Below are positions 3,483 through 14,519 of a DNA stretch of 64,000 bases, piece after piece; the stretch's first letter is position 1; each line of letters starts with the position of its first letter. The translations under genes were made by a program, and so were the position numbers. The stretch is from Aeromicrobium piscarium (GTDB lineage Bacteria > Actinomycetota > Actinomycetes > Propionibacteriales > Nocardioidaceae). The stretch lies in NCBI RefSeq assembly GCF_007421815.1, contig NZ_VLNT01000007.1, positions 122,006-186,005 of the forward strand, given 5' to 3'. Below the pieces are notes generated by a model. The model saw only the letters and a program-made list of their open reading frames with translations, was not told the DNA's origin and made no database searches.

Positions 3483-3876
3483 GCGAATGAGCCGGCCGGG
3501 CGGCCGCGGCATCGGTGACGATGTCGAGGAAAGTCCGGACTCCGCAGGGCACGGTGGTGGCTAACGGCCACCCACGGCGACGTGCGGGACAGTGCCACAG
3601 AGAGCAGACCGCCAGCGGCCCCTGTCGATGACAGGGGTGCGGGTAAGGGTGAAACGGTGAGGTAAGAGCTCACCAGCGCGGCGGGCGACCGTCGTGGCTC
3701 GGTAAACCCCACCGGGAGCAAGACCAAGAGGGCCTTCGGGCCTGCGCTGACGGGCGGCCCGTCCGATGTCAGCGGGTAGGTTGCACCGAGGCGCGCAGTG
3801 ATGCGCGTCCCAGATGGATGGTCGCCCCTCGCCTCCGGGCGAGGACAGAATCCGGCTTATAGGCCGGCTCATTCGC
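3483..3876 (+). ncRNA. rnpB: RNase P RNA, class A
   Basis: This is the catalytic RNA of RNase P, which matures tRNA 5' ends. Conserved region I, GAGGAAAGTCCGGACTCC, is at 3526-3543 and conserved region V, ACAGAATCCGGCTTATAGG, at 3845-3863; together they form the P4 pseudoknot. The 5' GAGCCGGCC pairs with 3' GGCCGGCTC to close P1. The length of about 390 nt and the GC-rich helices are typical of actinobacteria. The 3' end is also the attachment site of the element that follows: the last ~29 nt are duplicated at 12994-13022. The RNA end points are estimated from P1. Confidence 0.96.
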
Positions 3877-3878
3877 CC
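3850..3878 (+). repeat. attL core (rnpB 3' end)
   Basis: The 29-bp core begins at the last base of the conserved ACAGAA of RNase P RNA and runs through the P1 3' strand to the CGCCC end. It matches 12994-13022 at 28 of 29 positions (GGCCGG here, GGTCGG at the right end). Integration therefore leaves an intact rnpB 3' end here. Confidence 0.9.
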
Positions 3879-3920
3879 CACGGCCTCTGACCTGCGCAAA
3901 CTCTTCGTGACCCTGCGAGT

Positions 3921-3940
3921 AGTCCGCAGAGAGTCCGCAG
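3921..3940 (+). promoter_or_regulatory. Candidate integrase arm-type binding sites, left end
   Basis: Two direct copies of AGTCCGCAG start at 3921 and 3932, 11 bp apart, between the att core and the integrase stop. A closely similar pair with the same spacing lies at the right end (12858-12877). Arm-site function is inferred from position and duplication. Confidence 0.65.
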
Positions 3941-3945
3941 CAAGG

Positions 3946-5097
3946 TCACGAAGTCTTCTCGGTCGCACCACCTCCTTCGATTCGGTGGCTGAACGCCGCG
4001 TCGACGGCCGCGCGGGTCGTGTCGTCGGAGTCCGGCCACAGGTGGCTGTAGGTGTCCAGGGTCTCGGCGGCACTCGCGTGTCCCAGCCGAGCCTGGACGG
4101 TCTTGACGCTCTCGCCGTGGCGAATCAGCAGTGAGGCGTAGAGGTGTCGCAGGTCGTGAAAGCGCGTGCCCTCGGGGAGGCCGGCGGACTTGACTGCTGG
4201 CCGCCAGACCGCATCGCTGAACCGCGACCGCCGGTAGGGCGCACCCTCCGGGGCGCTGAACACGAGCTGTTCGCCATCGAGGTCGGCGGTGCCGTGCGCG
4301 GCAACGTGAGCAGCCAGCGCGTCGACAACGACCTGGGGGAGCGGGACGTCGCGCACGCTCGCGTCCGTCTTCGGTCGGACCAGCTTCGGCCCCGCTTCGA
4401 GATACTGGAGCTGGCGGTTGACGGTGACCGTGCGACGCAGGAAGTCGATGCGATCGATGGTGAGGCCGAACGTCTCGCCCTGCCGCAGCCCGGTTCCGGC
4501 CGTGAGGGTGACGAGCGCCTTGAGGTGCTCGGGCATCGCCTCGGTGAGCCGGTCGAGCTGATCCATCGTCATCGGGATGACCTTGGACTTCTCCGGCTTC
4601 GGCAAGCGGGTGTCAGCGCATGGGTTGGAGGCGATCTTGCGATCCCTCACCGCCGCAGCGAACACGCCGTGAATCATCCCGTGGACGACCGCGATCGTCC
4701 GGGGCTGAAGCGCCCCGCCGTTCTTCCGGTCGGACTCGGGATCTGGCGTAGCGAGCCGCTGGACCCACGCCTGCACGTCACTCGGTTTGATATTGGCGAT
4801 CGGTACGTCACCGAAGGCCGGATAGACGTGATTGCGGAACTGGCTCTCGGTGCGCTGGCGCGTGGTCTCGCGGTGCGGCTGTGCGCGACGCCATTGCTCG
4901 GCGTACTCCCTCAACGTGGTCTTGCCGGCGTTCGGGTTGACGTACTGCCCGGTGACGATCGAGGTAGTAACTTCGTCGAGCCATCGCTGAGCATCGACCT
5001 TGCGGTCGAAATGCTTCGCGTGCTCCTTGTTGGCGTTGTCCCGGTAGCGGGCGCGCCACTTGCCGTTGGGTCGTTTTGCAATGCTCTTACTCGCCAT
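3946..5097 (-). CDS. int: Tyrosine recombinase (phage-type integrase)
   Basis: A 383-residue integrase with an N-terminal arm-binding region (AP2-like, GKWRARYRD near residue 12), a SAM-like core-binding domain (about residues 60-165) and a C-terminal catalytic domain. The catalytic set is visible: R205 (GTGLRQGE), K243, H314 and R317 (HDLRH), H340 (LGH) and nucleophile Y350 (TLDTYSH). It should catalyse recombination between the element attP and the rnpB 3' end. The stop is 67 bp from the attL core, the usual arrangement. Its ATG overlaps the stop of the CGNR-like gene by one base (TGATG), so the two are cotranscribed. Confidence 0.96.
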   Translation of the reverse strand: MASKSIAKRPNGKWRARYRDNANKEHAKHFDRKVDAQRWLDEVTTSIVTGQYVNPNAGKTTLREYAEQWRRAQPHRETTRQRTESQFRNHVYPAFGDVPIANIKPSDVQAWVQRLATPDPESDRKNGGALQPRTIAVVHGMIHGVFAAAVRDRKIASNPCADTRLPKPEKSKVIPMTMDQLDRLTEAMPEHLKALVTLTAGTGLRQGETFGLTIDRIDFLRRTVTVNRQLQYLEAGPKLVRPKTDASVRDVPLPQVVVDALAAHVAAHGTADLDGEQLVFSAPEGAPYRRSRFSDAVWRPAVKSAGLPEGTRFHDLRHLYASLLIRHGESVKTVQARLGHASAAETLDTYSHLWPDSDDTTRAAVDAAFSHRIEGGGATEKTS

Positions 5098-5945
5098 CAG
5101 CCTGCCTCTCCTTTGGTTCGGGCGGCTCGTCGACGTTCGCGCTGGGACTGGTTCCTGGCATGCTGAGGGCTGCAGAACTTTGCTCCCCGTCGTCCCTCGC
5201 GCTGCGCGGCGCGGCCAATCTGGCGCTTAAACCTTCGACCACAGGTCTCGTCAGCGCAGTAGCTGTAGGGGAGACTCTCGGCCAAGTCGTTGAAGATCAG
5301 GACGCAGGCCACTTCGAACGTTGACGCGATCGCTAGACGTGCGTCGGTCCCCGCAGGGACGACAACTGGATGCACCACTTTGAGCCCCCTATTCAACAAG
5401 TCGGAGAACACTCGCCAGCCCCCGTCCTCAACATCGGCATCCAGGATCTCGCCGTTGAGCCTCTCGTCCGTGTCCCTCAAGTCGAAGGCCCCCGCGTGCT
5501 GCCAAATGGGCCCTACGGGTTCCCCTCGTAGCGCAGCCTCGGCATGGTCAGCCAGCAGGCGAATGAGCGTGACGCCGTGTGCAAGCTGCCGCAGTGATGC
5601 CTGCGTGGACCGGAGACCTGGCACGGGCGCAAACGGAAGATCCATTCGACTCTCGGCCAGCGGGGCTGACGGGTCGACGGGGCTGACGGCGTGTCTCGGA
5701 TCGCCGTAGGACTCTACGAATGACACGAGCTGGTCGGCGTCATCGACATCGAAGTCGAATACCTCCCGGAGGTGCATTTCCCGGGGCGCTTCTCGAGACG
5801 TTTCACCCATTAGCTGCTCGGTGCCGTGTTGCTCGAACCAGTCGATGTGATCCGCGTGGCAGGTGATCGGATCTCTCACGCGGAGTAGCGGAACGGGGAG
5901 GGGGTCGGGCGGACGAAGTGAGTAGCGAAAGTGAGGCTCAGCCAT
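5097..5945 (-). CDS. CGNR-like zinc-finger protein of the element
   Basis: A 282-residue protein with a variable N-terminal region and a C-terminal cysteine cluster, YCADETCGRRF followed by KFCSPQHARN, in an arginine-rich setting. This resembles the CGNR/ABATE-type treble-clef zinc finger common in actinobacterial regulators and small prophages. It probably binds DNA; a role in lysogeny control is suggested by its place upstream of, and coupled to, the integrase and divergent from the early operon. The middle part (about residues 100-220) matches nothing I recognise. The AT-rich promoter region at 5946-6012 lies directly upstream. Confidence 0.65.
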   Translation of the reverse strand: MAEPHFRYSLRPPDPLPVPLLRVRDPITCHADHIDWFEQHGTEQLMGETSREAPREMHLREVFDFDVDDADQLVSFVESYGDPRHAVSPVDPSAPLAESRMDLPFAPVPGLRSTQASLRQLAHGVTLIRLLADHAEAALRGEPVGPIWQHAGAFDLRDTDERLNGEILDADVEDGGWRVFSDLLNRGLKVVHPVVVPAGTDARLAIASTFEVACVLIFNDLAESLPYSYCADETCGRRFKRQIGRAAQREGRRGAKFCSPQHARNQSQRERRRAARTKGEAG

Positions 5946-6012
5946 GCTTCACATCTTGACGGACGATGAATAGCGTTGTCAAAACATAATCGCTACTCAG
6001 GCAGGAGAAGTT
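5946..6012. promoter_or_regulatory. Divergent control region of the element
   Basis: A 67-bp AT-rich gap separates the leftward CGNR-int genes from the rightward early operon. It holds TTGAC at 5956-5960 and GTCAA at 5978-5982 as an inverted pair, TAGCG/CGCTA arms at 5971-5975 and 5991-5995, and a CATAAT hexamer at 5985. GCAGGAGAAG before ATG 6013 is the RBS. This is the likely lysogeny switch; exact promoters are not resolved. Confidence 0.55.
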
Positions 6013-6198
6013 ATGACGCTCCCGAAGTTCCTCACCACAGAGGAGTTGGCCGAGCTGGTGCGCCAACCCCCGGAGACCGTTCGCTACTGGCGTCACGTCG
6101 GGAAGGGACCTGCGTCGTTCAAGCTCGGCCGTCGTGTGTTGTACGAGCGCACTGACGTGGAGGCCTGGATAACCGAGGCGAAGGCGGGTGCCGTGTGA
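6013..6198 (+). CDS. AlpA/MerR-type helix-turn-helix protein, probable excisionase
   Basis: A 61-residue single-domain protein of the helix-turn-helix 17 (excisionase) type: LTTEELAELVRQPPETVRYW forms the HTH, followed by the GPASFKLGRRVLYERTDVEAW wing. Such proteins act as recombination directionality factors or as regulators of element genes. A good RBS (AGGAG) precedes ATG 6013. It is the first gene of the rightward operon and overlaps the next start by four bases. Function as Xis is inferred from size, fold and context. Confidence 0.8.
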   Translation: MTLPKFLTTEELAELVRQPPETVRYWRHVGKGPASFKLGRRVLYERTDVEAWITEAKAGAV

Positions 6199-6647
6199 CC
6201 ACTGAAGTGAAAAGCCGCCCCAGGGGCGAATCTGGGGCGGCGAAGAAGCTCGGAGACGGTGGCTTCACGGTCAACGATACCGATGTTCAGCGTAAGTCGT
6301 TCGCCCTCGCGAAGATTAACGCGGGTCGCGGTCCGATCCCGAAGTACGGTTCGGCGGAGTGGGTGCTGTTGCCCGCCGACGATCCTCGTCGTGAGGCCGC
6401 GATGGCGATCGCTGCCGAGGCCTGGTTCTCCGAGGGTCAGCCCGACGTCATCGCCGGTCGCTTCTTCACCGAGCTGTACGCCGCCAGCAAAGCCGCCAAG
6501 GTCGCCGAGGACGAGGACTACCAGGCTGCCGTGGCTGCGCACCGCGAGTACTGGTCGAAGGCTGCTGCTCGTCGTGCCGGCCGGTATCCGGTTCGGCGTA
6601 CCAGCAATGTGGTGCCGTTGCGGCCGTCCGGTGGCGATGCGGCGTGA
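6195..6647 (+). CDS. Element protein, DUF2742-like
   Basis: A 150-residue protein starting at GTG 6195 in a GTGA overlap with the HTH gene. The segment PKYGSAEWVLLPADDPRREA, about residues 50-70, recalls DUF2742, a family found in small mycobacterial prophages such as phiRv1 and phiRv2. The C-terminal part is basic and ends with the motif VVPLRPSGGDA, which recurs in a related form (VVPLRGEGGDA) at the end of the next protein, a sign of shared ancestry or a common interaction tail. No catalytic residues are recognised. Family membership is tentative. Confidence 0.55.
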   Translation: MTTEVKSRPRGESGAAKKLGDGGFTVNDTDVQRKSFALAKINAGRGPIPKYGSAEWVLLPADDPRREAAMAIAAEAWFSEGQPDVIAGRFFTELYAASKAAKVAEDEDYQAAVAAHREYWSKAAARRAGRYPVRRTSNVVPLRPSGGDAA

Positions 6648-7960
6648 GCGAGGATTTCGAGCTTCAGCGTCAGATGCGGGTGACGTGGGCCGATGGGATC
6701 GAGCCGGAGCCGGTGGTATGGGCCTGGCGTGATGCCGCCGAGGGCCGGATACCGGCGGGGTCGTTGTCGGTGGCCGCTGGCCGTGAGGGGACTGGCAAGT
6801 CGTCGTTCGGTATCTGGCTGGCTGCCCAGATCACCAACGGCCGGTTGCCGGGCTCGTTCGCCGGTCGGCCTCGACGGGTGTTCTACGTCGCGGTGGAGGA
6901 CTCGTGGAGGCACACGCTCGTGCCGCGGCTGCTGGCTGCTGGTGCTGATCTGTCGTTGGTGGGCCGGCTGGATGTGGTCACCGAGATCGGGGACGAGGTG
7001 GTGCTGACGCTGCCAAGCGACAACAGCCTGTTCGAGACCGCCATCGCCGAGCACGACATCGCGCTGGTGGTGATCGACCCACTCATGAGCGTGATCGGTG
7101 GCCGGATCGACACCCACCGTGAACGGGACGTGCGGACCGCGCTCGATCCGTTGGCGAAGATCGCTGACCGGACCGGCTCGGTGGTCCTCGGCATCGCTCA
7201 CTTCAACAAGGGCGCTGGTGCCGACGCCGCGAGTCTGATCACCGGGTCGGGTGCGTTCAAGAACGTCCCTCGTTCGGTGTTCGGATTTGCTCGTGATGAG
7301 TCCGACGAACAGGGTGGCCGGGTCATGTCCCAGGTCAAGAACAGCCTGGGCCGCGACGATCTGCCGAGCCTCGGTTACCGGATCGAGGGCACCACCATCA
7401 CCACCGCCAAGGGTCCGGCCGAGACCGGCACCTTCGTGTTCACCGGCGTGTCCGAGAGGTCGGTCGGAGACGTGCTCCGCGACAGCCGCCTCGACCCCGA
7501 GGAACATGACGAGCGCCGCGATGCAGCCAGCTGGCTAATCGCCTACCTGACCGAGTGCGGCGGTGAGGCACCGTCCAGGGACGTCTTCAAGGCCGGGAAG
7601 GATGCCGGCGGATGGAGCCAGCAGTCGCTGCGGCGGGCCAGGGGCGTGCGGGTCAAGTCGTTCAAGGAGGGGATGAGCGCCGGCTGGGTCTGGAAACTGA
7701 CCGACGCGATCTTGCCCGAAGATGACACGAAGATGACGAAGGTTACAGGGGCCGAGAACCCGGCATCTTCGGCACCTTCGGTGTCACCTTCTACTGCCGA
7801 ACCGCCCGAAGGGTGCACGAAGAGTGCGAAGAGTGCAGAGCCTGAGAGTTCGCACCCTTCGCACCCTTCGGAGCCGGACGTCCTCGACGAGCTGGTGGCC
7901 GGATTCGGTGAGAACTCGAACGTCGTGCCACTGCGCGGCGAGGGAGGCGACGCGTCATGA
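6644..7960 (+). CDS. RepA-like AAA/RecA-fold ATPase
   Basis: A 438-residue protein starting at GTG 6644 (GTGA overlap). The N-terminal 270 residues form a RecA-type ATPase: Walker A GREGTGKSS at 46-54, Walker B LVVIDPL near residue 142, and an HFNKGAG motif near residue 186 typical of RSF1010 RepA-like hexameric helicases and phage-element primase-helicases. A winged-helix-like region (about 290-360) precedes a disordered S/P/E-rich tail. It probably drives replication of the excised element. The tail repeats the VVPLR-GDA ending of the previous protein. Confidence 0.8.
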   Translation: MSEDFELQRQMRVTWADGIEPEPVVWAWRDAAEGRIPAGSLSVAAGREGTGKSSFGIWLAAQITNGRLPGSFAGRPRRVFYVAVEDSWRHTLVPRLLAAGADLSLVGRLDVVTEIGDEVVLTLPSDNSLFETAIAEHDIALVVIDPLMSVIGGRIDTHRERDVRTALDPLAKIADRTGSVVLGIAHFNKGAGADAASLITGSGAFKNVPRSVFGFARDESDEQGGRVMSQVKNSLGRDDLPSLGYRIEGTTITTAKGPAETGTFVFTGVSERSVGDVLRDSRLDPEEHDERRDAASWLIAYLTECGGEAPSRDVFKAGKDAGGWSQQSLRRARGVRVKSFKEGMSAGWVWKLTDAILPEDDTKMTKVTGAENPASSAPSVSPSTAEPPEGCTKSAKSAEPESSHPSHPSEPDVLDELVAGFGENSNVVPLRGEGGDAS

Positions 7961-8088
7961 CCGTATTGCTGACGGACTGCCGGCGCTGCGCCATCGGGCT
8001 CGTCTGCTGCTACCGGGCTCAGCTCGGTGGTGACTCTGCCTGTTGCCCGGACTGCACCCACCGGCTCGAAGGGGTGACTAAGCGGTGA
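7957..8088 (+). CDS. 43-residue cysteine-rich protein
   Basis: A tiny ORF fills the otherwise empty space between the ATPase and the WhiB-like gene with ATGA and GTGA overlaps at its two ends, strong evidence that it is translated. Seven of 43 residues are cysteine (C8, C11, C17, C18, C29, C30, C33), including CRRC and CPDC pairs, so a zinc-binding knuckle is likely. No family is recognised. Confidence 0.7.
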   Translation: MTVLLTDCRRCAIGLVCCYRAQLGGDSACCPDCTHRLEGVTKR

Positions 8089-8387
8089 CAGTCCCCAACT
8101 ACCGGACGACCCCGGCACGGGCGGAAGCACTGGCTGAGCTGTACGTCGCGATCGGCCGAGCTGACGACAAGGGCGAAGTCGTGCCCTGCGTGGCCTCGTC
8201 CTCGGGATGGTGGCTGTCCGATGACGCCGAGGAACAGGAAGCGGCGGCGTGGCGGTGCATGCAGTGCCCGGTGATCACGAGCTGCGCGGGCTACATCGAA
8301 CATCACGGCGAGCTGGCCGGGGTCTGGGCCGGGATCACACAGGGGGATCGCACAAAGAGGACGAGGAAGACGGGAGAACCATCATGA
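8085..8387 (+). CDS. WhiB-like (Wbl) iron-sulfur regulator of the element
   Basis: A 100-residue protein with the Wbl cysteine pattern C35-x22-C58-x2-C61-x5-C67 (CMQCPVITSC) and a GVWAG turn at 79-83, close to the G(V/I)WGG of the family, followed by a basic tail (KRTRK). Wbl proteins bind a [4Fe-4S] cluster and control transcription, often through sigma A; phage-encoded forms can interfere with host WhiB proteins. It starts at GTG 8085 and overlaps both neighbours. The spacing C35 to C58 is within the family range. Target genes are unknown. Confidence 0.8.
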   Translation: MTVPNYRTTPARAEALAELYVAIGRADDKGEVVPCVASSSGWWLSDDAEEQEAAAWRCMQCPVITSCAGYIEHHGELAGVWAGITQGDRTKRTRKTGEPS

Positions 8388-8590
8388 CCGCGCGTTCACA
8401 CACCCGCAGCCGTGAGCGGCGTAAGCGGTTCCGGGCGAACAGTCGCCGGATTGGCCGGGAGCGTCACGAGTTCGTTGAGGTGACGTTCCAGCAACTCGCT
8501 CGAATGCTCGTCGATGAGGGCAAGGCATCGCGAGCGATTCTCGGCCCTCAGATACCCACACATCACAGGAAGCAAGGAGACGACGCATGA
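8384..8590 (+). CDS. Small basic element protein
   Basis: A 68-residue protein, strongly basic at its N-terminus (RSRERRKRFRANSRRIGRER), starting at ATG 8384 in an ATGA overlap with the WhiB-like gene. The basic half suggests nucleic-acid binding; the C-terminal half carries a short helix (VTFQQLARMLVDEG). No family is recognised. The overlaps on both sides support it as a real gene. Confidence 0.6.
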   Translation: MTARSHTRSRERRKRFRANSRRIGRERHEFVEVTFQQLARMLVDEGKASRAILGPQIPTHHRKQGDDA

Positions 8591-8850
8591 CCGAAAGACT
8601 GACTGCCAACGTCAGGCCCGTTGACCACACGCGGAGCTTGCGCGTGCTGTTGGCTTGGCTGACAGGCGACAAGCTCGCGCTGGACTATGTCCTGGAGGAG
8701 GTCATGGACGAACCCGCCGGCGTGCCCGGCCTGCTGTTCGCGCTGACCGGGTTCACTGCCGAGCTGACCGACAAGTGCTTGCCGGATGCCGTTGAGCAGT
8801 TGCGCGCCTCGCTGGCCGCGCAGGTTGGCGACGAGGAGGCCGACCAGTGA
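8587..8850 (+). CDS. Small element protein of unknown function
   Basis: An 87-residue acidic protein starting at ATG 8587 (ATGA overlap) and ending in a GTGA overlap. It appears all-helical, with a LLAWLTGDKLALDYVLEEV segment near residue 20. Nothing in it is recognised. The unbroken chain of overlaps from 6195 to here marks a single polycistronic unit. Confidence 0.6.
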   Translation: MTERLTANVRPVDHTRSLRVLLAWLTGDKLALDYVLEEVMDEPAGVPGLLFALTGFTAELTDKCLPDAVEQLRASLAAQVGDEEADQ

Positions 8851-9038
8851 GCGCCGCAGGGTGGCTGCGCTCGGCTACAACACCGGCCGACGATCCAACA
8901 GAGCGCATCATCGGTACCTCTGGCGAAGGCAGGGTACTGGTGGTCACAGCGACCGACGAGGACGGTGACCCGACCGAGTACACGTGGATGTCCCCGGCCG
9001 TCGCCGACCACTACGACGTGCGGGTGTGGTGGCAGTGA
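8847..9038 (+). CDS. Small element protein of unknown function
   Basis: A 63-residue protein starting at GTG 8847 in a GTGA overlap. It contains a predicted beta-rich core (GRVLVVTATDEDGDPTEYTW) and ends with RVWWQ. It is the last member of the overlapped chain before the repeat-bearing gap that precedes the capsid gene. No family is recognised. Confidence 0.55.
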   Translation: MSAAGWLRSATTPADDPTERIIGTSGEGRVLVVTATDEDGDPTEYTWMSPAVADHYDVRVWWQ

Positions 9039-9058
9039 CTTCGCCAGCGATTGGTGGG

Positions 9059-9295
9059 ATGATGAAGGCAGCGTCGATGAGACAAGACCCTTATCAAGGG
9101 ACGAGGAGCCGCGAGGCCAAGTTCCGAGGAACGAGAGTCGAGGATCGAGTCAACGTCAGAGGTACGGCCAGCGGTAGCCAATCCGTCCGCCTTCTGACCT
9201 CGCCAGATGCAGCAGACGCCAGCGGTAGCCAATCCGTCCGTGATCGAAGCGCACTGGCCGACATCGAACTCCGCCTACGGGCGCAGACTCCATAG
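9059..9295 (+). CDS. Possible short ORF with an internal 17-residue repeat period
   Basis: An ORF of 78 residues from ATG 9059 to TAG 9295. It encodes ASGSQSVR twice, 17 residues apart, because a 22-bp DNA repeat recurs at a 51-bp spacing that keeps frame. It ends 10 bp before the capsid ATG. It could be a remnant of a head-maturation gene, a small structural peptide, or non-coding DNA with a repeat. The RBS is weak and no family is recognised. Confidence 0.3.
   Translation: MMKAASMRQDPYQGTRSREAKFRGTRVEDRVNVRGTASGSQSVRLLTSPDAADASGSQSVRDRSALADIELRLRAQTP
9168..9240 (+). repeat. Two 22-bp direct repeats upstream of the capsid gene
   Basis: CCAGCGGTAGCCAATCCGTC plus two further bases occurs at 9168-9189 and again at 9219-9240, identical, 51 bp apart. 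It may be a protein-binding or packaging-related site, or simply part of a short coding repeat. Confidence 0.8.
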
Positions 9296-9305
9296 GAGAA
9301 CTCTC

Positions 9306-10484
9306 ATGAGCACCATCACGTCACTCGAAGCACAGCGCTCGCAGGTGCTTCTCAAGGGCCAGGCAGTCATCGACCGAGCCAAGGCCGAGAACCGCGATCT
9401 CACCGCGAGCGAGATCAAGCAGGTCGATGAGGTACACGACCTCGTGCGCGGCGAGATCGATCCTGCCATCATCGCCGCGAAGAAGAAGGCCAAGGACTCG
9501 TCCGCGCTGTTCGACGCGATCGGTGCGCTCGGCAACGATGAATCGACCAGCGATGCCTTCCGCTTGTTCGGTCGCGGCGCTAAGTCGCACGCAGCGAACG
9601 TCGCCGAACGAATGCTGGACCGCTCCGCTTTGGGTGACGGCCGCAAGGCACTGTTGACCGGAGCCTCGGTTGAGCTTGATCCTGGTGCCGCCAGCATCAG
9701 CCTCGATATCCACAACGACCCCCGCCTGCCTCTGACATTCCTGGAGCTGCTGCCCGGTGTCCGCCGTGAAGCTGCCCAGTACGTGTACATGCAGCAGGTC
9801 GGCCGCGATAACCAAGCGGCCATTGTCCCGGCGGGTGAAGCCAAGCCGACCAGCATCTACAGTGCCGGACCCAAGCAGGGTTCGCTGCAGGTCTTCGCCC
9901 ACATGTCCGAGCCGATCGACCAGTATCTGCTCAGCGACGTCTCGACACTGAGCAACTTCCTGCAGGCCGAGATGCTCTACGGCCTGCAGGTCGCCGTCGA
10001 GGACGAGGTACTCAACGGCGACGGCAGCGCCGGCCATCTGACGGGCCTGCTGCAGACCTCCGGCATTCAGGTCCAGACCCCGGCCGCTGATGCCCTGACG
10101 ACGCTGCGCGCGGCGGCGACCAAGATCGAGGTGCTGGGCTTCAACGCCAATGCCTTCGTGCTCAACCCGCTTGACTGGGAGGCGATCGAAACCGCCCGCA
10201 ACAGCTCCGGGTCCTTCGACCTCGGTGGCCCGGTGGACCGGGCAGCCCGCACCGTGTGGGGCACCCAGGTCACCCTCTCCACCCGCCTGCCCCAGGGCAC
10301 CGGAGTTGCACTGGACACGCAAGTCGTCTCGGTCGACTACGACTCGACCGGAGTGAAGTTCGAGGCTGGCACTGTTGGCGAGGACTTCTTGCGCAACCAG
10401 ATCCGGTTCCGCAACGAGGGGCGCTTCGGAGTCGCGGTCTATCAGCCCGCTGGCGTCGTTCAGATCACCCTCAGCGACGACTGA
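9306..10484 (+). CDS. HK97-fold major capsid protein
   Basis: A 392-residue phage major capsid protein. Residues 1-75 form a charged coiled-coil (EAQRSQVLLKGQAVIDRAKAE), the fused delta scaffolding domain of HK97-type proteins. The rest has the usual features: PLTFLELLPGVRREA, an E-loop region around VPAGEAKP, VEDEVLNGDGSAGHLTGLL and NAFVLNPLDWEAI. I chose ATG 9306 (AGGAG 8 nt upstream). The delta domain is normally removed by a prohead protease, but no protease gene is visible in the element. With no portal or terminase either, the capsid may depend on a helper phage. Confidence 0.93.
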   Translation: MSTITSLEAQRSQVLLKGQAVIDRAKAENRDLTASEIKQVDEVHDLVRGEIDPAIIAAKKKAKDSSALFDAIGALGNDESTSDAFRLFGRGAKSHAANVAERMLDRSALGDGRKALLTGASVELDPGAASISLDIHNDPRLPLTFLELLPGVRREAAQYVYMQQVGRDNQAAIVPAGEAKPTSIYSAGPKQGSLQVFAHMSEPIDQYLLSDVSTLSNFLQAEMLYGLQVAVEDEVLNGDGSAGHLTGLLQTSGIQVQTPAADALTTLRAAATKIEVLGFNANAFVLNPLDWEAIETARNSSGSFDLGGPVDRAARTVWGTQVTLSTRLPQGTGVALDTQVVSVDYDSTGVKFEAGTVGEDFLRNQIRFRNEGRFGVAVYQPAGVVQITLSDD

Positions 10485-10826
10485 GGGACACGCGGTGTCA
10501 ACGTCACCCTCAGCCGATCCTTTTGACCTTCTCTCGGTGGTAGGGAGCGATGGCCGATAGCGGACCCTTCCAGTCCCCGCAGTGACTCGACCAGCACCGC
10601 AACGATGGGGCCGCCGACCTGGACTCGCTACGAGTCAGGTCGGCGGCCCTGCCACTTCGTTCCTGACCGCGACCCGAGGGGTAGTGGGGGTTCCGATCAC
10701 TGGAGCGGACCCCGGTTCGACTGCCGCCGTCAGTCCTCCTACACACACGGCATTTTTTTGCAACGGACTCCCCGCACTTGACCCAAATGAAGTACGTGCG
10801 ACGGCAGTGTTAGGTACGATCCCAGG
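10485..10826. other. Gap with a strong hairpin; no gene seen
   Basis: The 342 bp between the capsid gene and the lipoprotein gene hold one strong stem (GGGGCCGCCGACCTG at 10607-10621 and CAGGTCGGCGGCCC at 10636-10649), probably the capsid-operon terminator, and an unusual T7 tract (10753-10759). No convincing ORF or RNA gene was found. Confidence 0.6.
10607..10649 (+). terminator. Probable terminator after the capsid gene
   Basis: A 14-bp stem with a short loop lies 122 bp after the capsid stop. It has no U-tract, as is common for hairpin terminators in GC-rich actinobacteria. Confidence 0.55.
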
Positions 10827-11240
10827 GTGATCCGTGCCGCAGCGCTGAGCCTCGTCACTATGCTGCTGGTTGCCGGCTGCGGCACAGACGAGCGGGAAGC
10901 CGACTCCGATACTCAGCAGACACCCTCGACGCCCGCTGAGCCAGATTCTGCTTGGGAGGGGATCGAGGGACAACGTGTCACGCCTTCTGCCTCGTGCTTG
11001 GTCGCGATGCAAGCCGCGGCGGATGAGCCCGACAGCGATCGGGCCGATACCTTGATCAGAACCTCGCTCGATGAATGCTCCGGCGTAGACGAATGGCTTT
11101 CCGCGTTAGATGAACACCCCGGAGCCCTCGGCCTGACCGAGCACGCCGTCATCGGAGCGCTGGACCTTCGCGCGGCGTGCTTCCCATCACCTGATTCCAC
11201 CGTCTGCCAGGACGCGAACGCGCGCGGCGTTACGCCCTGA
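10827..11240 (+). CDS. Element-borne lipoprotein of unknown function
   Basis: A 137-residue protein starting at GTG 10827. The N-terminus MIRAAALSLVTMLLVAGC is a lipoprotein signal with lipobox LVAGC, so the mature protein should be anchored outside the membrane through Cys18. The rest is acidic with five further cysteines that could form disulfides. A TACGAT -10 at 10815-10820 would put the transcript start at the GTG, making it leaderless. Surface lipoproteins on prophages sometimes block superinfection; that is a guess here. No family is recognised. Confidence 0.65.
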   Translation: MIRAAALSLVTMLLVAGCGTDEREADSDTQQTPSTPAEPDSAWEGIEGQRVTPSASCLVAMQAAADEPDSDRADTLIRTSLDECSGVDEWLSALDEHPGALGLTEHAVIGALDLRAACFPSPDSTVCQDANARGVTP

Positions 11241-11297
11241 ACTGATCCCTCCACTCGTCACGTAGGACGAGCCGCGAATGGTCATCGCAGAATGAAC

Positions 11298-11333
11298 GAG
11301 ACCCCGAGGTATTTCCCCTTACCTCGGGGTCTC
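11298..11333. terminator. Bidirectional hairpin terminator
   Basis: GAGACCCCGAGGTA at 11298-11311 pairs with TACCTCGGGGTCTC at 11320-11333. It lies between the converging lipoprotein gene and the minus-strand DUF2188 gene and can serve both. Confidence 0.8.
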
Positions 11334-11346
11334 GTCACGTCAGGGC

Positions 11347-11571
11347 TCAGCCCTTGACGTTGCGCGGATCGTTCCCGTAGGAGTTCTTCGCGCCGATCGT
11401 GCCGTCCTTCTTCTTGATGAAGTGCTCGACCTCATCTCGCTTCGCAGCTGCACGACCATTCGCCTGCTGCTCGGCCTTCGTTCCACCGGCGCTGAACGCC
11501 CGGCTCGAACCTTGACGCCTGCTCTTCCACGTACCGTCTTCGTAGTACGTATCGATGTCACCCTTAGCCAT
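11347..11571 (-). CDS. DUF2188-like small protein
   Basis: A 74-residue basic protein. The features TWKSRRQGSSRAFS, a central Gln/Ala helix (TKAEQQANGRAAAKRDE) and the C-terminal KKDGTIGAKNSYGNDPR match DUF2188, a small family common in plasmids, phages and some chromosomes, with no known function. I chose ATG 11571 because AAAGGAGG lies 8 nt upstream; the longer form from GTG 11580 would place the start inside the RBS region. Confidence 0.8.
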   Translation of the reverse strand: MAKGDIDTYYEDGTWKSRRQGSSRAFSAGGTKAEQQANGRAAAKRDEVEHFIKKKDGTIGAKNSYGNDPRNVKG

Positions 11572-11756
11572 CTCCCTCACCTCCTTTCGCTGGTTTGCGT
11601 TGAGCAGACCACACCGGCACGCTCAAATGCAGATGACACACGGAGGGACCATTCCGCTAACAGCGAACACCGAGTTACAGCAATGTCCGCGTGCGGAGCT
11701 GACCGCGAGAACCTTTTTCGCGGTGTCACGAAAAAGTCCGCCCCGCGCACGCGACA

Positions 11757-11781
11757 TCAATTGCGGTTGCCGCAATTGATC
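11757..11781. repeat. Perfect 11-bp inverted repeat, candidate operator
   Basis: ATCAATTGCGG and CCGCAATTGAT flank a 3-bp centre (TTG). The AT-rich ends and 25-bp size are typical of a dimeric regulator site. No cognate regulator can be named. Confidence 0.7.
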
Positions 11782-11821
11782 ACCCCGGCCCCGCACGTGG
11801 GGCAGGCGCCTCGCCTGACCA

Positions 11822-11882
11822 CCGCGACCCGCTAACCTCGTGACGTTCTTCTCAAACGTACGAAACGGTCAGCGGGTCGCGG
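11822..11882 (-). terminator. 12-bp inverted repeat after the minus-strand operon
   Basis: CCGCGACCCGCT (11822-11833) is repeated inverted at 11871-11882, just beyond the stop of the 11889-12119 gene. The 37-nt loop contains a second small inverted pair (GACGTT/AACGT). Terminator function is inferred. Confidence 0.5.
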
Positions 11883-11888
11883 AAGGTG

Positions 11889-12119
11889 TCATGACCGGAG
11901 CAGCTCGTACCGCTCAGCGCACCTTGGGCAGGTGTTCGGCGTCCCACCCTGGCCCGTCCCGACAGGATCGGCGACTATGCGGCCACGGGCCCCGCATAGG
12001 GCCATGATCTTCACGCCGTCAACGACCGACCGCAGAATGTCGTCCTTGGGGTAGTAGTGGTGGACCTTCTTGCGCTTCGTGGCCGAGGTGGTCCGCTGGG
12101 TGACGGTCGCCGCGCTCAT
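11889..12119 (-). CDS. Small zinc-finger-like protein (DUF3039-like)
   Basis: A 76-residue protein with a basic N-terminus, HHYYPKDD, an ALCGARG motif (C42) and a terminal CPRC pair (C64, C67). The pattern of one cysteine after a short strand and a late CPxC recalls the DUF3039 group of small actinobacterial zinc-binding proteins. Its ATG overlaps the stop of the preceding gene (ATGA). It is the last gene of the four-gene minus-strand operon. Function unknown. Confidence 0.6.
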   Translation of the reverse strand: MSAATVTQRTTSATKRKKVHHYYPKDDILRSVVDGVKIMALCGARGRIVADPVGTGQGGTPNTCPRCAERYELLRS

Positions 12120-12382
12120 GCCACACCTGCCGGGGTGATCGTCCGGACGATGTTGAGGGCCTGCTCGATCAGATACCCGACGGGCAGGTTCAGCGCGGAC
12201 TCGATCGCGACCAGATCGGTGACGGTGAAGCCGTCAATGCCGTCCAGGCCTTCGGCCATGTTGCCCGCGTCGATACCGGACCACTCGACGAGCTGATCCT
12301 CGGTGACCTCCTGAGCGTCCCTCGCGCGGCGGACCTCCGACGCGATCGCCCAGTTCACCGCCTCACGAAACTGAGGACTCAT
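12116..12382 (-). CDS. Small helix-turn-helix-like protein
   Basis: An 88-residue acidic, all-helical protein. Residues 25-75 (VTEDQLVEWSGIDAGNMAEG, then VTDLVAIESALNLPVGYLI) follow the layout of an XRE-type HTH domain, with an SGIDAGNM turn and a LxxIxxALxxP segment. A DNA-binding regulator is likely. It overlaps its neighbours by ATGA on both sides. Confidence 0.6.
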   Translation of the reverse strand: MSPQFREAVNWAIASEVRRARDAQEVTEDQLVEWSGIDAGNMAEGLDGIDGFTVTDLVAIESALNLPVGYLIEQALNIVRTITPAGVA

Positions 12383-12651
12383 GCCGTCTCACCCCGCTCA
12401 ATCCCGTCGAGAACGAACGAAGCGCGGAACAGCGCGTGCCCCAGCTCCCGCAGACCCTCGGCGGTCAGCTCGTCATCGGTCGGTGCGTCGAGGAACGCCA
12501 CCGGGGCTTCATCCCTGACTCCCTGAGCCAGCGAGACCCTGTAGCCCCCAGGCCCCAGCTCGATCACGCCGTTGCACTGCTCATCCTCGGGATGCTCTGA
12601 CAGGAAGTGATCGTCACACCACGATGGGCAGGTCATCGTCGCGGCGCTCAT
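12379..12651 (-). CDS. Small CPxWC-type protein
   Basis: A 90-residue protein whose N-terminus carries CPSWCDDH (C8, C12, H15), a putative metal site seen in many small actinobacterial proteins (DUF6907-like), followed by a GPGGYRVSLAQG strand region and a helical C-terminus. I chose ATG 12651, which overlaps the upstream stop by ATGA, over a longer form. Function unknown. Confidence 0.6.
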   Translation of the reverse strand: MSAATMTCPSWCDDHFLSEHPEDEQCNGVIELGPGGYRVSLAQGVRDEAPVAFLDAPTDDELTAEGLRELGHALFRASFVLDGIERGETA

Positions 12652-12827
12652 GCGACCCACCGCCCGAACTCATCGCGGCCCATCGCAGTCAGGCACTCGC
12701 CTAACTCCGCGCGAGCCTCCGACCTCGACGCGAACCCGCCGAATGTGATCTCGCCGCACTCGCAGCACGCGGCGAAGCCGTCACTGCGAGGAACTGCCTC
12801 GACCTGATGTTGTGTAGCTCGTTCCAT
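12648..12827 (-). CDS. Small cysteine-containing element protein
   Basis: A 59-residue protein with a CCECGEITFGGF segment (C21, C22, C24) and a helical, Arg/Glu-rich C-terminus. ATG 12827 is preceded by AAGGAG at a good distance. It is the first gene of the four-gene minus-strand operon, whose promoter must lie in the 165-bp AT-rich stretch toward attR. No family is recognised. Confidence 0.6.
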   Translation of the reverse strand: MERATQHQVEAVPRSDGFAACCECGEITFGGFASRSEARAELGECLTAMGRDEFGRWVA

Positions 12828-12857
12828 GTCTCCATCTCCTTGCTTCCGATACAGAGC

Positions 12858-12877
12858 TGTCCGCAGACAGTCCGCAA
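12858..12877 (+). promoter_or_regulatory. Candidate integrase arm-type binding sites, right end
   Basis: TGTCCGCAG at 12858 and AGTCCGCAA at 12869 repeat the left-end pair with the same 11-bp spacing and orientation. Next to them CAAAACGGT occurs twice (12875 and 12885), 10 bp apart, possibly accessory or Xis sites. Confidence 0.65.
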
Positions 12878-12993
12878 AACGGTTCAAAACGGTATGCGTC
12901 AGCAAATGCTCACCAACGCCTGAAATCAATGTTTGTGCAGGTCAGAAGGTTTATCCATGGATAACCAACGGTAGTCATCGGAAGCTCATCAAT

Positions 12994-13022
12994 ATCCGGC
13001 TTATAGGTCGGCTCATTCGCCC
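12994..13022 (+). repeat. attR core
   Basis: This is the right-hand copy of the 29-bp rnpB 3' end. It differs from attL at one base (T for C in GGTCGG), which would still pair as G-U in RNase P helix P1. Chromosomal sequence resumes after it. Confidence 0.9.
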
Positions 13023-13074
13023 TTAGGCTCTGACCTGTCCGGAGCTCGCCTGATGTCGTCGGCTGCCTCGCACG

Positions 13075-13271: not shown

Positions 13272-14519
13272 TCAGCCCGCCGTGACTGACCGCAGTGATG
13301 TCGCGATCTGGTCGTAGCCGCGCTGCTCGGCATGTGCCAGTGCCGTCATCCCGTCGTTGTCGGTGATCGACGGATCGGCACCGGCCTCCAGCAGAATGTC
13401 GACGATCCGCTGGTGAGCCTCGCCGCCGTCCCCGAGGATCACTGCCTCCAGCAGGGCCGTCCACCCCAACTGATTCACGTGATCGACATCGATCCCCGTC
13501 TGCACCACACGACGGACGTAGTCCACATGTCCGCGCTCGCTCGCCGGGATCACCGAGACGCCGCCGAAGCGGTTGACGATGGTGAGATCCGGTTCCGCCG
13601 GCAACAGTGTCTCGAGCATCGCGACACTCCCCGTCACCCCGGTGAGGAGCCAGGCCGTGTCGTGACGGTCGTCGAGCACATCGGGATCGGCGCCGAGCGC
13701 CACCAGCACTCGCGCGGCAGCCACGTGGTCGCCGATCGAGGCGTGCAGCAACGCCGTGCGGCCATCCTCGCCCCGCGCATCGATGTCCGCTCCCGCGCGG
13801 AGCGCCCGAGCGACGAGATCCGCATCGCCATCGGCAGCCGCGCGCAACAGGGTCGCATTCGCATCACCCTCCGCGACAGGCGCCGTCGTGGCCTCGAAGA
13901 CGCCCACGAGGCCGGTGAAGCCGCGCTGCCCGGCCAGCTGCGTCGGCGTGAGACCCTGGCGATCCGAGCGACGGTCCGCTGTCGCCCCAGCGGCGATCAG
14001 CACTCGTACGGTCGTCGCGTAGTCCGCATCGTCACGCCCGAGCCACGCCGCCTCGTGGATGGCCTGATAGCCCAGATTGTTGACGTGATCGAGGTCGACA
14101 CCGGTCCGTACCAGATCACCCACCACGTTCGCATGACCGCGCTCGGCGGCCCGGATCAGCGCAGTGCCCTCGAAGGAGTCCAGTGCCGTGACATCGGCCC
14201 CGGCGTCGAGGGCGAGCCGCAGGATGTCGAGATGGCCCTCACTCGCCGCGATCAGGAAGGACGACTGCTGTGTCTCGTCCTGGTGGTCGACGTCCGCCCC
14301 GCGCTCGATCAGATCGGTGACCGCGGGCACGTCGTTCGCCCAGGTGGCCTCGATCAACGCGGTATCGAGGTCCTCCTGGGACAGCTCTTCGGCGGGTGCC
14401 GTGCTCACGGAAGGAATCGTCTCAGCCGGCGGAACGGCGGCCGGCGTCGTGTCCGCACAGGCGGCGAGCAGCGCACCCAGCGCCAGCGTGACGAGCGGGA
14501 AGGAGACCGATGACCTCAT
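13272..14519 (-). CDS. Ankyrin-repeat lipoprotein
   Basis: A 415-residue exported lipoprotein. The signal MRSSVSFPLVTLALGALLAAC ends in lipobox LLAAC; a short P/A-rich linker follows, then two blocks of ankyrin repeats (roughly residues 55-220 and 250-415) with repeating LIERGADVDHQDE and GRTALLHAS-type units. The two blocks look like an internal duplication (HVNNLGYQAIHEAAWLG and HVNQLGWTALLEAVILG). It should act in protein-protein binding outside the membrane; the partner is unknown. I chose ATG 14519; longer frames run into non-coding sequence. It is monocistronic. Confidence 0.85.
   Translation of the reverse strand: MRSSVSFPLVTLALGALLAACADTTPAAVPPAETIPSVSTAPAEELSQEDLDTALIEATWANDVPAVTDLIERGADVDHQDETQQSSFLIAASEGHLDILRLALDAGADVTALDSFEGTALIRAAERGHANVVGDLVRTGVDLDHVNNLGYQAIHEAAWLGRDDADYATTVRVLIAAGATADRRSDRQGLTPTQLAGQRGFTGLVGVFEATTAPVAEGDANATLLRAAADGDADLVARALRAGADIDARGEDGRTALLHASIGDHVAAARVLVALGADPDVLDDRHDTAWLLTGVTGSVAMLETLLPAEPDLTIVNRFGGVSVIPASERGHVDYVRRVVQTGIDVDHVNQLGWTALLEAVILGDGGEAHQRIVDILLEAGADPSITDNDGMTALAHAEQRGYDQIATSLRSVTAG

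Follow-up and report, generated by a model that had tools for sequence, protein, structure and literature searches.

Paired boxes at both ends of an rnpB-integrated element of Aeromicrobium piscarium as probable arm-type sites of its tyrosine integrase

Introduction

Which protein, if any, reads the short paired boxes that lie near both ends of a mobile element at rnpB, the RNA gene of ribonuclease P (RNase P), in the actinobacterium Aeromicrobium piscarium? The boxes belong to a 64,000-nucleotide stretch of this genome (assembly GCF_007421815.1, contig NZ_VLNT01000007.1, positions 122,006 to 186,005 of the forward strand), hereafter the window, in whose own numbering all positions are given. 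A preliminary description, made from the letters alone, had taken them for arm-type sites of a lambda-like integrase and for a sign that both ends of the element are intact. Comparison with related elements leads us to consider the boxes very probably arm-type binding sites of the element's tyrosine integrase (Int), a protein of 383 residues encoded on the reverse strand at 3946–5097.

Results and Discussion

The pairs occur where they had been described, at 3921–3940 and 12858–12877, with a spacing of 11 bp and in the same orientation. The left pair consists of two exact copies of AGTCCGCAG (3921–3929 and 3932–3940), while the right pair, on the same strand, reads TGTCCGCAG (12858–12866) and AGTCCGCAA (12869–12877), with one mismatch in each box. 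Lone boxes are unremarkable (21 matches with at most one mismatch in the window, 27 expected). The joint four-box arrangement is not due to chance: the two 200-bp arms score 31/32, the maximum among 300 dinucleotide shuffles being 26, and in the 64 kb only four positions (791, 3921, 7717, and 7718) begin an exact 9-mer pair with a spacing of 11.

The borders of the element are set by rnpB. A full-length RNase P RNA of class A (Rfam RF00010, 278.5 bits), the sole match in the genome, occupies 3488–3875 on the forward strand, and its 3′ end at 3850–3878 recurs at 12994–13022 as a 29-bp direct repeat with 28 of 29 letters identical; the element therefore spans 3850–13022, with these two forward-strand copies as the left (attL) and right (attR) cores. 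Judged from the sequence, the rnpB 3′ end is the attachment site of this mobile element of about 9 kb. Both box pairs fall within these borders, at distances of 42 bp (left) and 116 bp (right) from the respective core; the element ends at the rnpB cores, not at the boxes. The claim of two intact ends agrees with the core duplication, and joining the ends would place one box pair on each side of the rnpB core, with all four boxes in the same direction. A tRNA or transfer-messenger RNA (tmRNA) gene as the target was considered and rejected, none being found within the window; among 22 relatives' loci, two tRNAs were found, neither adjoining int.

The preliminary description had staked its reading on conservation of the boxes among related elements, and conserved they are. 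Within the genome collection, the nearest integrase shares 64% identity with that of the window. We fetched 80 loci and located rnpB in them with a profile hidden Markov model. For 53 of the 79 loci of the coordinate list, the distance between rnpB and the integrase match is at most 350 bp (median 75 bp); for 10 it is 508–5521 bp, and for 16, some of which are short contigs, rnpB is outside the fetched stretch; L062, outside that list, also adjoins rnpB. The core pattern (at most one mismatch) occurs at least twice in all 16 relatives' genomes of a first set, exactly twice in 15 of them and on different contigs in five, and at least twice in all 10 genomes of a second set (three times in G828), G412 being common to both.

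Every one of the 11 rnpB elements read at both ends carries an 11-bp-spaced pair at both ends. These elements measure 2.6 to 29 kb and include that of the window and G423, a 2.6-kb remnant with a partial int. Their best left pair starts 65–69 bp past the CCGG of the core, and their best right pair lies 125–161 bp ahead of it; their arms contain no GTCCGCA-type or CTACGCA-type pair on the opposite strand. Among 56 left arms with a parsed core (seven further rnpB loci had none), an exact 8-mer pair at spacing 11 is present in 46, and a pair with at most one mismatch in 50, while at any other spacing between 8 and 30 exact 8-mer pairs are seen in no more than 6 of the 56, with shuffles near zero. 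The six arms lacking even a one-mismatch pair are L011, L025, L049, L069, L078, and L081. On the right-hand side, a pair with at most one mismatch is found in 19 of 21 loci with a script-found second core, five of which are shared with the set of 11, and a pair is present in 8 of 9 further right-end stretches; some right arms (L005, L017, L246, and L247) hold three boxes in register. The pair stays beside rnpB even where int is 2.7–4.9 kb away (L003, L014, L022, L024, L028, and L052) or on the other strand (L044, L046, L047, and L050), and the positions of the window's left boxes are those conserved in relatives.

The box words vary between elements, yet they match between copies and between ends. 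Variants include GTTCCTCA in L018, GTCCTCA in L007, GTCCCCA in L012 and L026, CTGCCCAC in L027, GCTACGCA in G419 and G420, and GGGGCAC in L031. This variation could be set against that of the proteins. For 37 integrases, box distance correlates with the distance between integrase N-terminal domains (N-domain, residues 13–58; Mantel r 0.76, p 0.0005), with lower values for the core-binding domain (0.23, p 0.026) and the catalytic domain (0.12, p 0.16). For 43 integrases, the corresponding values are 0.73 (p 0.0005), 0.28 (p 0.01), and 0.16 (p 0.13), and the N-domain correlation is 0.73 when the catalytic domain is allowed for. The alternative that survives best holds that the boxes are sites of the excisionase, that is, of the AlpA-like protein of these elements, or of another element regulator, and not of Int. 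Directionality factors also bind attP (the element's own attachment site) arms, an AlpA-like gene is present in all ten other elements read at both ends, and AlpA-like distance taken alone does correlate with box distance (r 0.36, p 0.0005, in the 37 of 43 loci where such a protein was found). That correlation disappears, however, when Int N-domain distance is controlled for (−0.05, p 0.69), whereas the N-domain correlation given AlpA holds at 0.725 over the same 37 loci. In the set of 43, box positions 1, 4, and 6 are best matched, among the integrase columns, by N-domain residues 29, 27, and 25. We regard this alternative as improbable. Box sequence follows the integrase N-domain and not the catalytic domain; with the N-domain accounted for, it does not follow the AlpA-like protein either. 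The N-domain (about residues 1–58) is the likely reader of the boxes. Both this tracking and the matching of variants at the two ends back the original assignment of the boxes as arm sites.

Still less credible is an origin of the boxes as host sequence downstream of rnpB, such as a terminator or processing signal, that the element has carried along. The nearly fixed place of the left pairs, 49 of 50 of which were found at 67–72 bp from the rnpB core, would suit such an origin, but the boxes are missing from 28 of the 29 other rnpB loci of the genus, and 42 integrases whose fetched stretch contains no rnpB have like pairs beside int. The sole carrier among the 29, L122 (G394), has the same letters downstream of rnpB as Aeromicrobium sp. 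Root495 (L002) over the stretches compared. The best-matching rnpB locus of the genus, L127, has no boxes, and its left flank is 88.6% identical through 3880, the core end, where the identity stops. That the boxes are functionless products of chance and common descent of a short sequence would fit the single-box matches, no commoner than expected, and the GTCCGCA word common to most boxes, but it can be dismissed as scarcely plausible, given that both copies and both ends shift together to other words with the spacing of 11 kept and that none of the 300 shuffles reaches the observed four-box score.

The integrase has the three-domain architecture of a lambda-like enzyme. It matches PF00589, PF14659, and PF22022, and residues R205, K243, H314, R317, H340, and Y350 are invariant in 28 aligned proteins; we take these to be the conserved catalytic Arg/Lys/His/Arg/His/Tyr set of tyrosine integrases. 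The PF00589 match and the invariant residues are those expected of the catalytic domain of a heterobivalent (lambda-type) tyrosine integrase, as is the separate N-terminal domain, a three-stranded sheet and a helix at model residues 4–49. In the AlphaFold2 model (28 sequences; mean predicted local distance difference test score, pLDDT, 86.4), the strands run at residues 4–8, 14–19, and 25–30 and the helix at 33–49, and residues 25, 27, and 29 occupy alternate places on one strand of this lambda-Int-like N-domain. The three-domain fold, N-terminal domain included, is like that of lambda integrase (1z1b and 1z1g; 18–19% identity in the Foldseek alignment). The alignment of the lambda Int chains 1z1b, 1z1g, and 5j0n begins at model residue 3–4, with a root-mean-square deviation (rmsd) of 8.8–10.7 over all domains; 1z1b gives Z 19.7 and rmsd 8.8, and 1z1g gives Z 19.1 and rmsd 10.7, values which indicate that the domains are placed differently in these chains than in the model. 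A second structural comparison covered mostly residues 54–360. The arm layout here, we assume, differs from that of lambda. Int is matched by 1750 records of isolated phages, all below 60% identity, the highest value being 34% among the 30 matches listed.

At the level of single residues, the set of 43 integrases (from which 14 distinct integrases with rnpB in the locus were excluded, no pair ending in CA having been parsed) gives the following pattern. Of the integrase columns scored, the best is residue 25 for box position 6, residue 27 for position 4, residue 29 for position 1, and residue 32 for position 2. Glu25 goes with CG at positions 5–6 in 34 of 34 cases (boxes ending in CGCA), and Gln25 is without CG in nine of nine, with CC (5), CT (2), CA (1), or TG (1) instead. 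On a tree built without the N-domain, residue 25 and the box trait change seven times each, and on supported branches they agree in all five independent pairs (p 0.0625); residue 27 and base 4 agree in four of five, none opposed, and residue 29 and base 1 in about 2.4 of 4.

As a held-out set, we took 89 further distinct integrases and searched around the end of each int reading frame, from 40 bp before it to 140 bp past it; a pair was found for 43, which comprise the 42 without rnpB mentioned above and L185. Here Glu25 goes with CG in 33 of 34 (29 of 30 by distinct N-domain), and Gln25 goes with CA in six, with one CG and one CA copy in two, and in one case with a pair out of frame, which was excluded from the column ranking. 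Thr27 goes with TA in five of six, Ala, Ser, or Val27 with TC in 25 of 27, and Lys27 with GG in seven of seven; at base 1, A accompanies His29 in 14 of 15 cases, and C accompanies Gly29 in eight of nine. The top columns for positions 6 and 1 are again residues 25 and 29, respectively. From these regularities, we infer that strand 25–30 reads the 8-mer box AGTCCGCA, with residue 25 facing base 6, residue 27 facing bases 3–4, and residue 29 facing base 1; this face of the strand presumably enters the major groove, as judged from lambda Int.

Several observations weigh against so simple a correspondence, and some against the arm-site assignment itself. Right ends L049 and L052, among the 21, and L243, among the nine further stretches, have no pair. 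The 14 excluded integrases gave no parsed pair, although one of them, L022, had yielded one in other box scans; likewise, 46 of the 89 held-out integrases had no pair within the 180 bp searched beside the int end, although L250, L253, and L273 have a pair beside rnpB and L278 has a pair, all fitting the rule and all uncounted. Glu25 occurs with ..GGCCCA in L295 (a word also seen in L294), Gln25 with one GGGGCGCA copy in L296 and L301, and Thr27 with C at base 4 in L236 (held-out, the exception noted above) and L007 (set of 43). Glu27 goes with CC in both held-out cases, yet with TG in the single case of the set of 43, and residue 27 ranks only third among the held-out columns for bases 3 and 4. 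The sign-test value of 0.0625 is the minimum reachable with five pairs, and control cross-pairings on the tree also agree often (residue 25 with base 4 in three of five, and residue 27 with bases 5–6 in about 3.7 of 5), so the tree alone cannot assign residues to bases; for that assignment, the ranking of columns and the held-out set carry more weight. On balance, we rate as an even chance the broader proposition of a simple code across this large actinobacterial integrase group, in which one beta strand would specify bases 6, 3–4, and 1 through its alternate residues 25, 27, and 29, respectively, arm sites would be predictable from the protein, and arm specificity would have switched repeatedly with all four boxes matched and the rnpB target kept. 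In detail, this candidate code would run from Glu25 to CG; from Gln25 to CC, CT, or CA; from Ala, Ser, or Val27 to TC; from Thr27 to TA; from Lys27 to GG; from His29 to A; and from Gly29 to C.

With the boxes as arm sites, a mechanism can be proposed. As for lambda and L5, each Int protomer would grip a box via its small N-terminal domain and the rnpB core via its other domains; two boxes one helical turn apart would take two N-domains, and the heterobivalent tyrosine integrase would thereby bridge the two arm-box pairs and the rnpB core. Int would join attP to the end of rnpB, with the element resupplying the last ~25 nucleotides of the RNA gene, and the AlpA-like protein would set the direction of recombination.

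Among known systems, putative arm-type sites as direct pairs, with a tyrosine Int, are described for attP of the mycobacteriophages L5 and Giles in passages of PMC3203893. The window family is like these in layout, having paired direct arm sites on both sides of the core together with a tyrosine Int, and unlike them in its rnpB core and in the number of boxes, of which the arms read have two or three on each side. All 11 elements show direct-repeat pairs flanking the core on both sides in the same orientation, and the core is duplicated at both ends of the element, at a chromosomal site (attB, the rnpB 3′ end), as in an L5/Giles-type attP. The comparison supports an L5/Giles-like arm-site layout, known in kind. 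Of the lambda-like integrase first proposed, the term fits the three-domain enzyme, but direct pairs on both sides are the layout of L5 and Giles in those passages of PMC3203893. The same passages describe cluster K1 mycobacteriophages such as CrimD, in which two pairs of 11-bp repeats flank a core at the 3′ end of the tmRNA gene, with P3/P4 inverted relative to P1/P2, and propose N-domain residues 17 and 19 as candidate readers of a variable arm-site base in four phages. The present family is like CrimD in that pairs flank a core at the 3′ end of a non-coding RNA gene; it differs in its direct pairs, in its rnpB target, and in the 43 + 42 integrases compared. Pairs of 10-bp imperfect direct repeats are described for cluster J (passages of PMC3706429).

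We found no description of rnpB or RNase P RNA as an integration site in the open-licence literature searched, as far as its available passages extend, and it may be described elsewhere; rnpB as a target is absent from passages of PMC2705793, PMC5462765, PMC2516327, PMC2824730, PMC6582537, PMC7921747, PMC12884075, PMC10654092, and PMC6109161. Within the literature searched, the rnpB-targeting family and the family-wide correspondence of box and residue appear to be new. The gene of a core ribozyme is thereby added to the home sites of an actinobacterial element family, and a short repeat becomes a testable protein–DNA correspondence in a recombinase domain whose site preferences are called "ill-defined" for some related phage integrases (passages of PMC3203893). 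How elements with a common attB steer clear of one another's arms, or exploit them, can now be addressed by experiment, and because effects of single-residue substitutions can be predicted, independent integration systems become conceivable in harmless laboratory actinobacteria.

Other features of the arms can be set beside the box pairs. The extra CAAAACGGT pair claimed for the right end is present at 12875–12883 and 12885–12893 on the forward strand, with a spacing of 10 and overlapping the second right box, but it is absent from the right arms of all ten other rnpB elements and from nine further right-end stretches; it was rejected as a second arm type for this lack of conservation and is probably not an arm site. 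An inverted repeat also flanks the core in attP, its left member CTCTGACCTGC at 3885–3895 matching its right member GCAGGTCAGA at 12937–12946 (both forward-strand coordinates) in 10 of 10 letters. As CTCTGACCTG / CAGGTCAG, this repeat is complete in the window, G409, and G414 (10 of 10 letters; none of 100 shuffles), but it is weaker in the other 8 of the 11 elements and has therefore been kept out of our claim. Between the right box pair and the core, CCAAC repeats on one strand number 0 to 4 per element, with two in the window (12913–12970; p ~0.004); these may be candidate sites of a directionality factor. Just beyond the right core, GCTCTGACCTGTCC at 13027–13040 resembles the element's left end, with CTCTGACCTG at both 3885 and 13028, and may be the remnant of an earlier element at the same site; if it is, such an element could account for the single C/T difference between the two cores. 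The locus of L078 has three core copies, as does the genome of G828 (on two contigs), which suggests more than one element at rnpB in these cases. In two genomes of the genus, G073 and G021, a second, weak rnpB match lies 3.5–3.9 kb downstream of the full one.

The cargo points to a satellite-like element. On the forward strand, an AlpA/Xis-like HTH_17 protein and likely directionality factor (6013–6198; PF12728, PHROG 66 excisionase) is followed by a 150-residue protein with no match to PHROG or Pfam families (6195–6647), an AAA_25 or helicase–primase-type protein (6644–7960; PF13481, PHROG 10729), a WhiB-like protein (8085–8387; PF02467), and an HK97-type major capsid protein (9207–10484; PF05065, with PDB 9lbm and 1ohg matched by sequence), which has 12 relatives in viral contigs at 25–32% identity. 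On the reverse strand are a 282-residue protein (5097–5945) with no PHROG, Pfam, or PADLOC match and short genes for DUF2188 (11347–11580; PF09954) and DUF3039 (11889–12119; PF11238) proteins. The C-terminal part of the 282-residue protein is rich in Cys and Arg, which to us has the look of a zinc finger. No terminase, portal, or tail families were found among the 16 open reading frames of the element that were scanned (10 of them against PHROGs), although the AlpA-like helix-turn-helix protein gave two weak terminase-small-subunit matches (E 0.015 and 0.079). An integrase and a capsid gene without a full virion gene set are expected of satellites resembling phage-inducible chromosomal islands (PICIs), and the AlpA-like, helicase-type, WhiB-like, and HK97 capsid genes together with the short leftward genes give the element a satellite-like character. 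Candidate PICIs with an integrase and a capsid gene are described in passages of PMC10654092; the present element is like them in gene content, combining integrase, helicase-type, and major capsid genes, and unlike the three tyrosine-Int examples mapped there, which lie in tRNA genes, it sits in rnpB. In the ten other elements read at both ends, an integrase relative and an AlpA-like gene are each present in all ten, a capsid gene in one (G416, E 1e-4), and a WhiB-like gene in one (G409). To judge from gene content, the shared unit is Int, the AlpA-like gene, and the attachment site, while the cargo differs. A direct repeat of 23 bp without mismatches (9167–9189 and 9218–9240, 51 bp apart) lies where the capsid reading frame starts. 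Adjoining attR, an ankyrin-repeat gene at 13272–14810 matches the PADLOC candidate-defence model PDC-M72A (E 1.3e-36).

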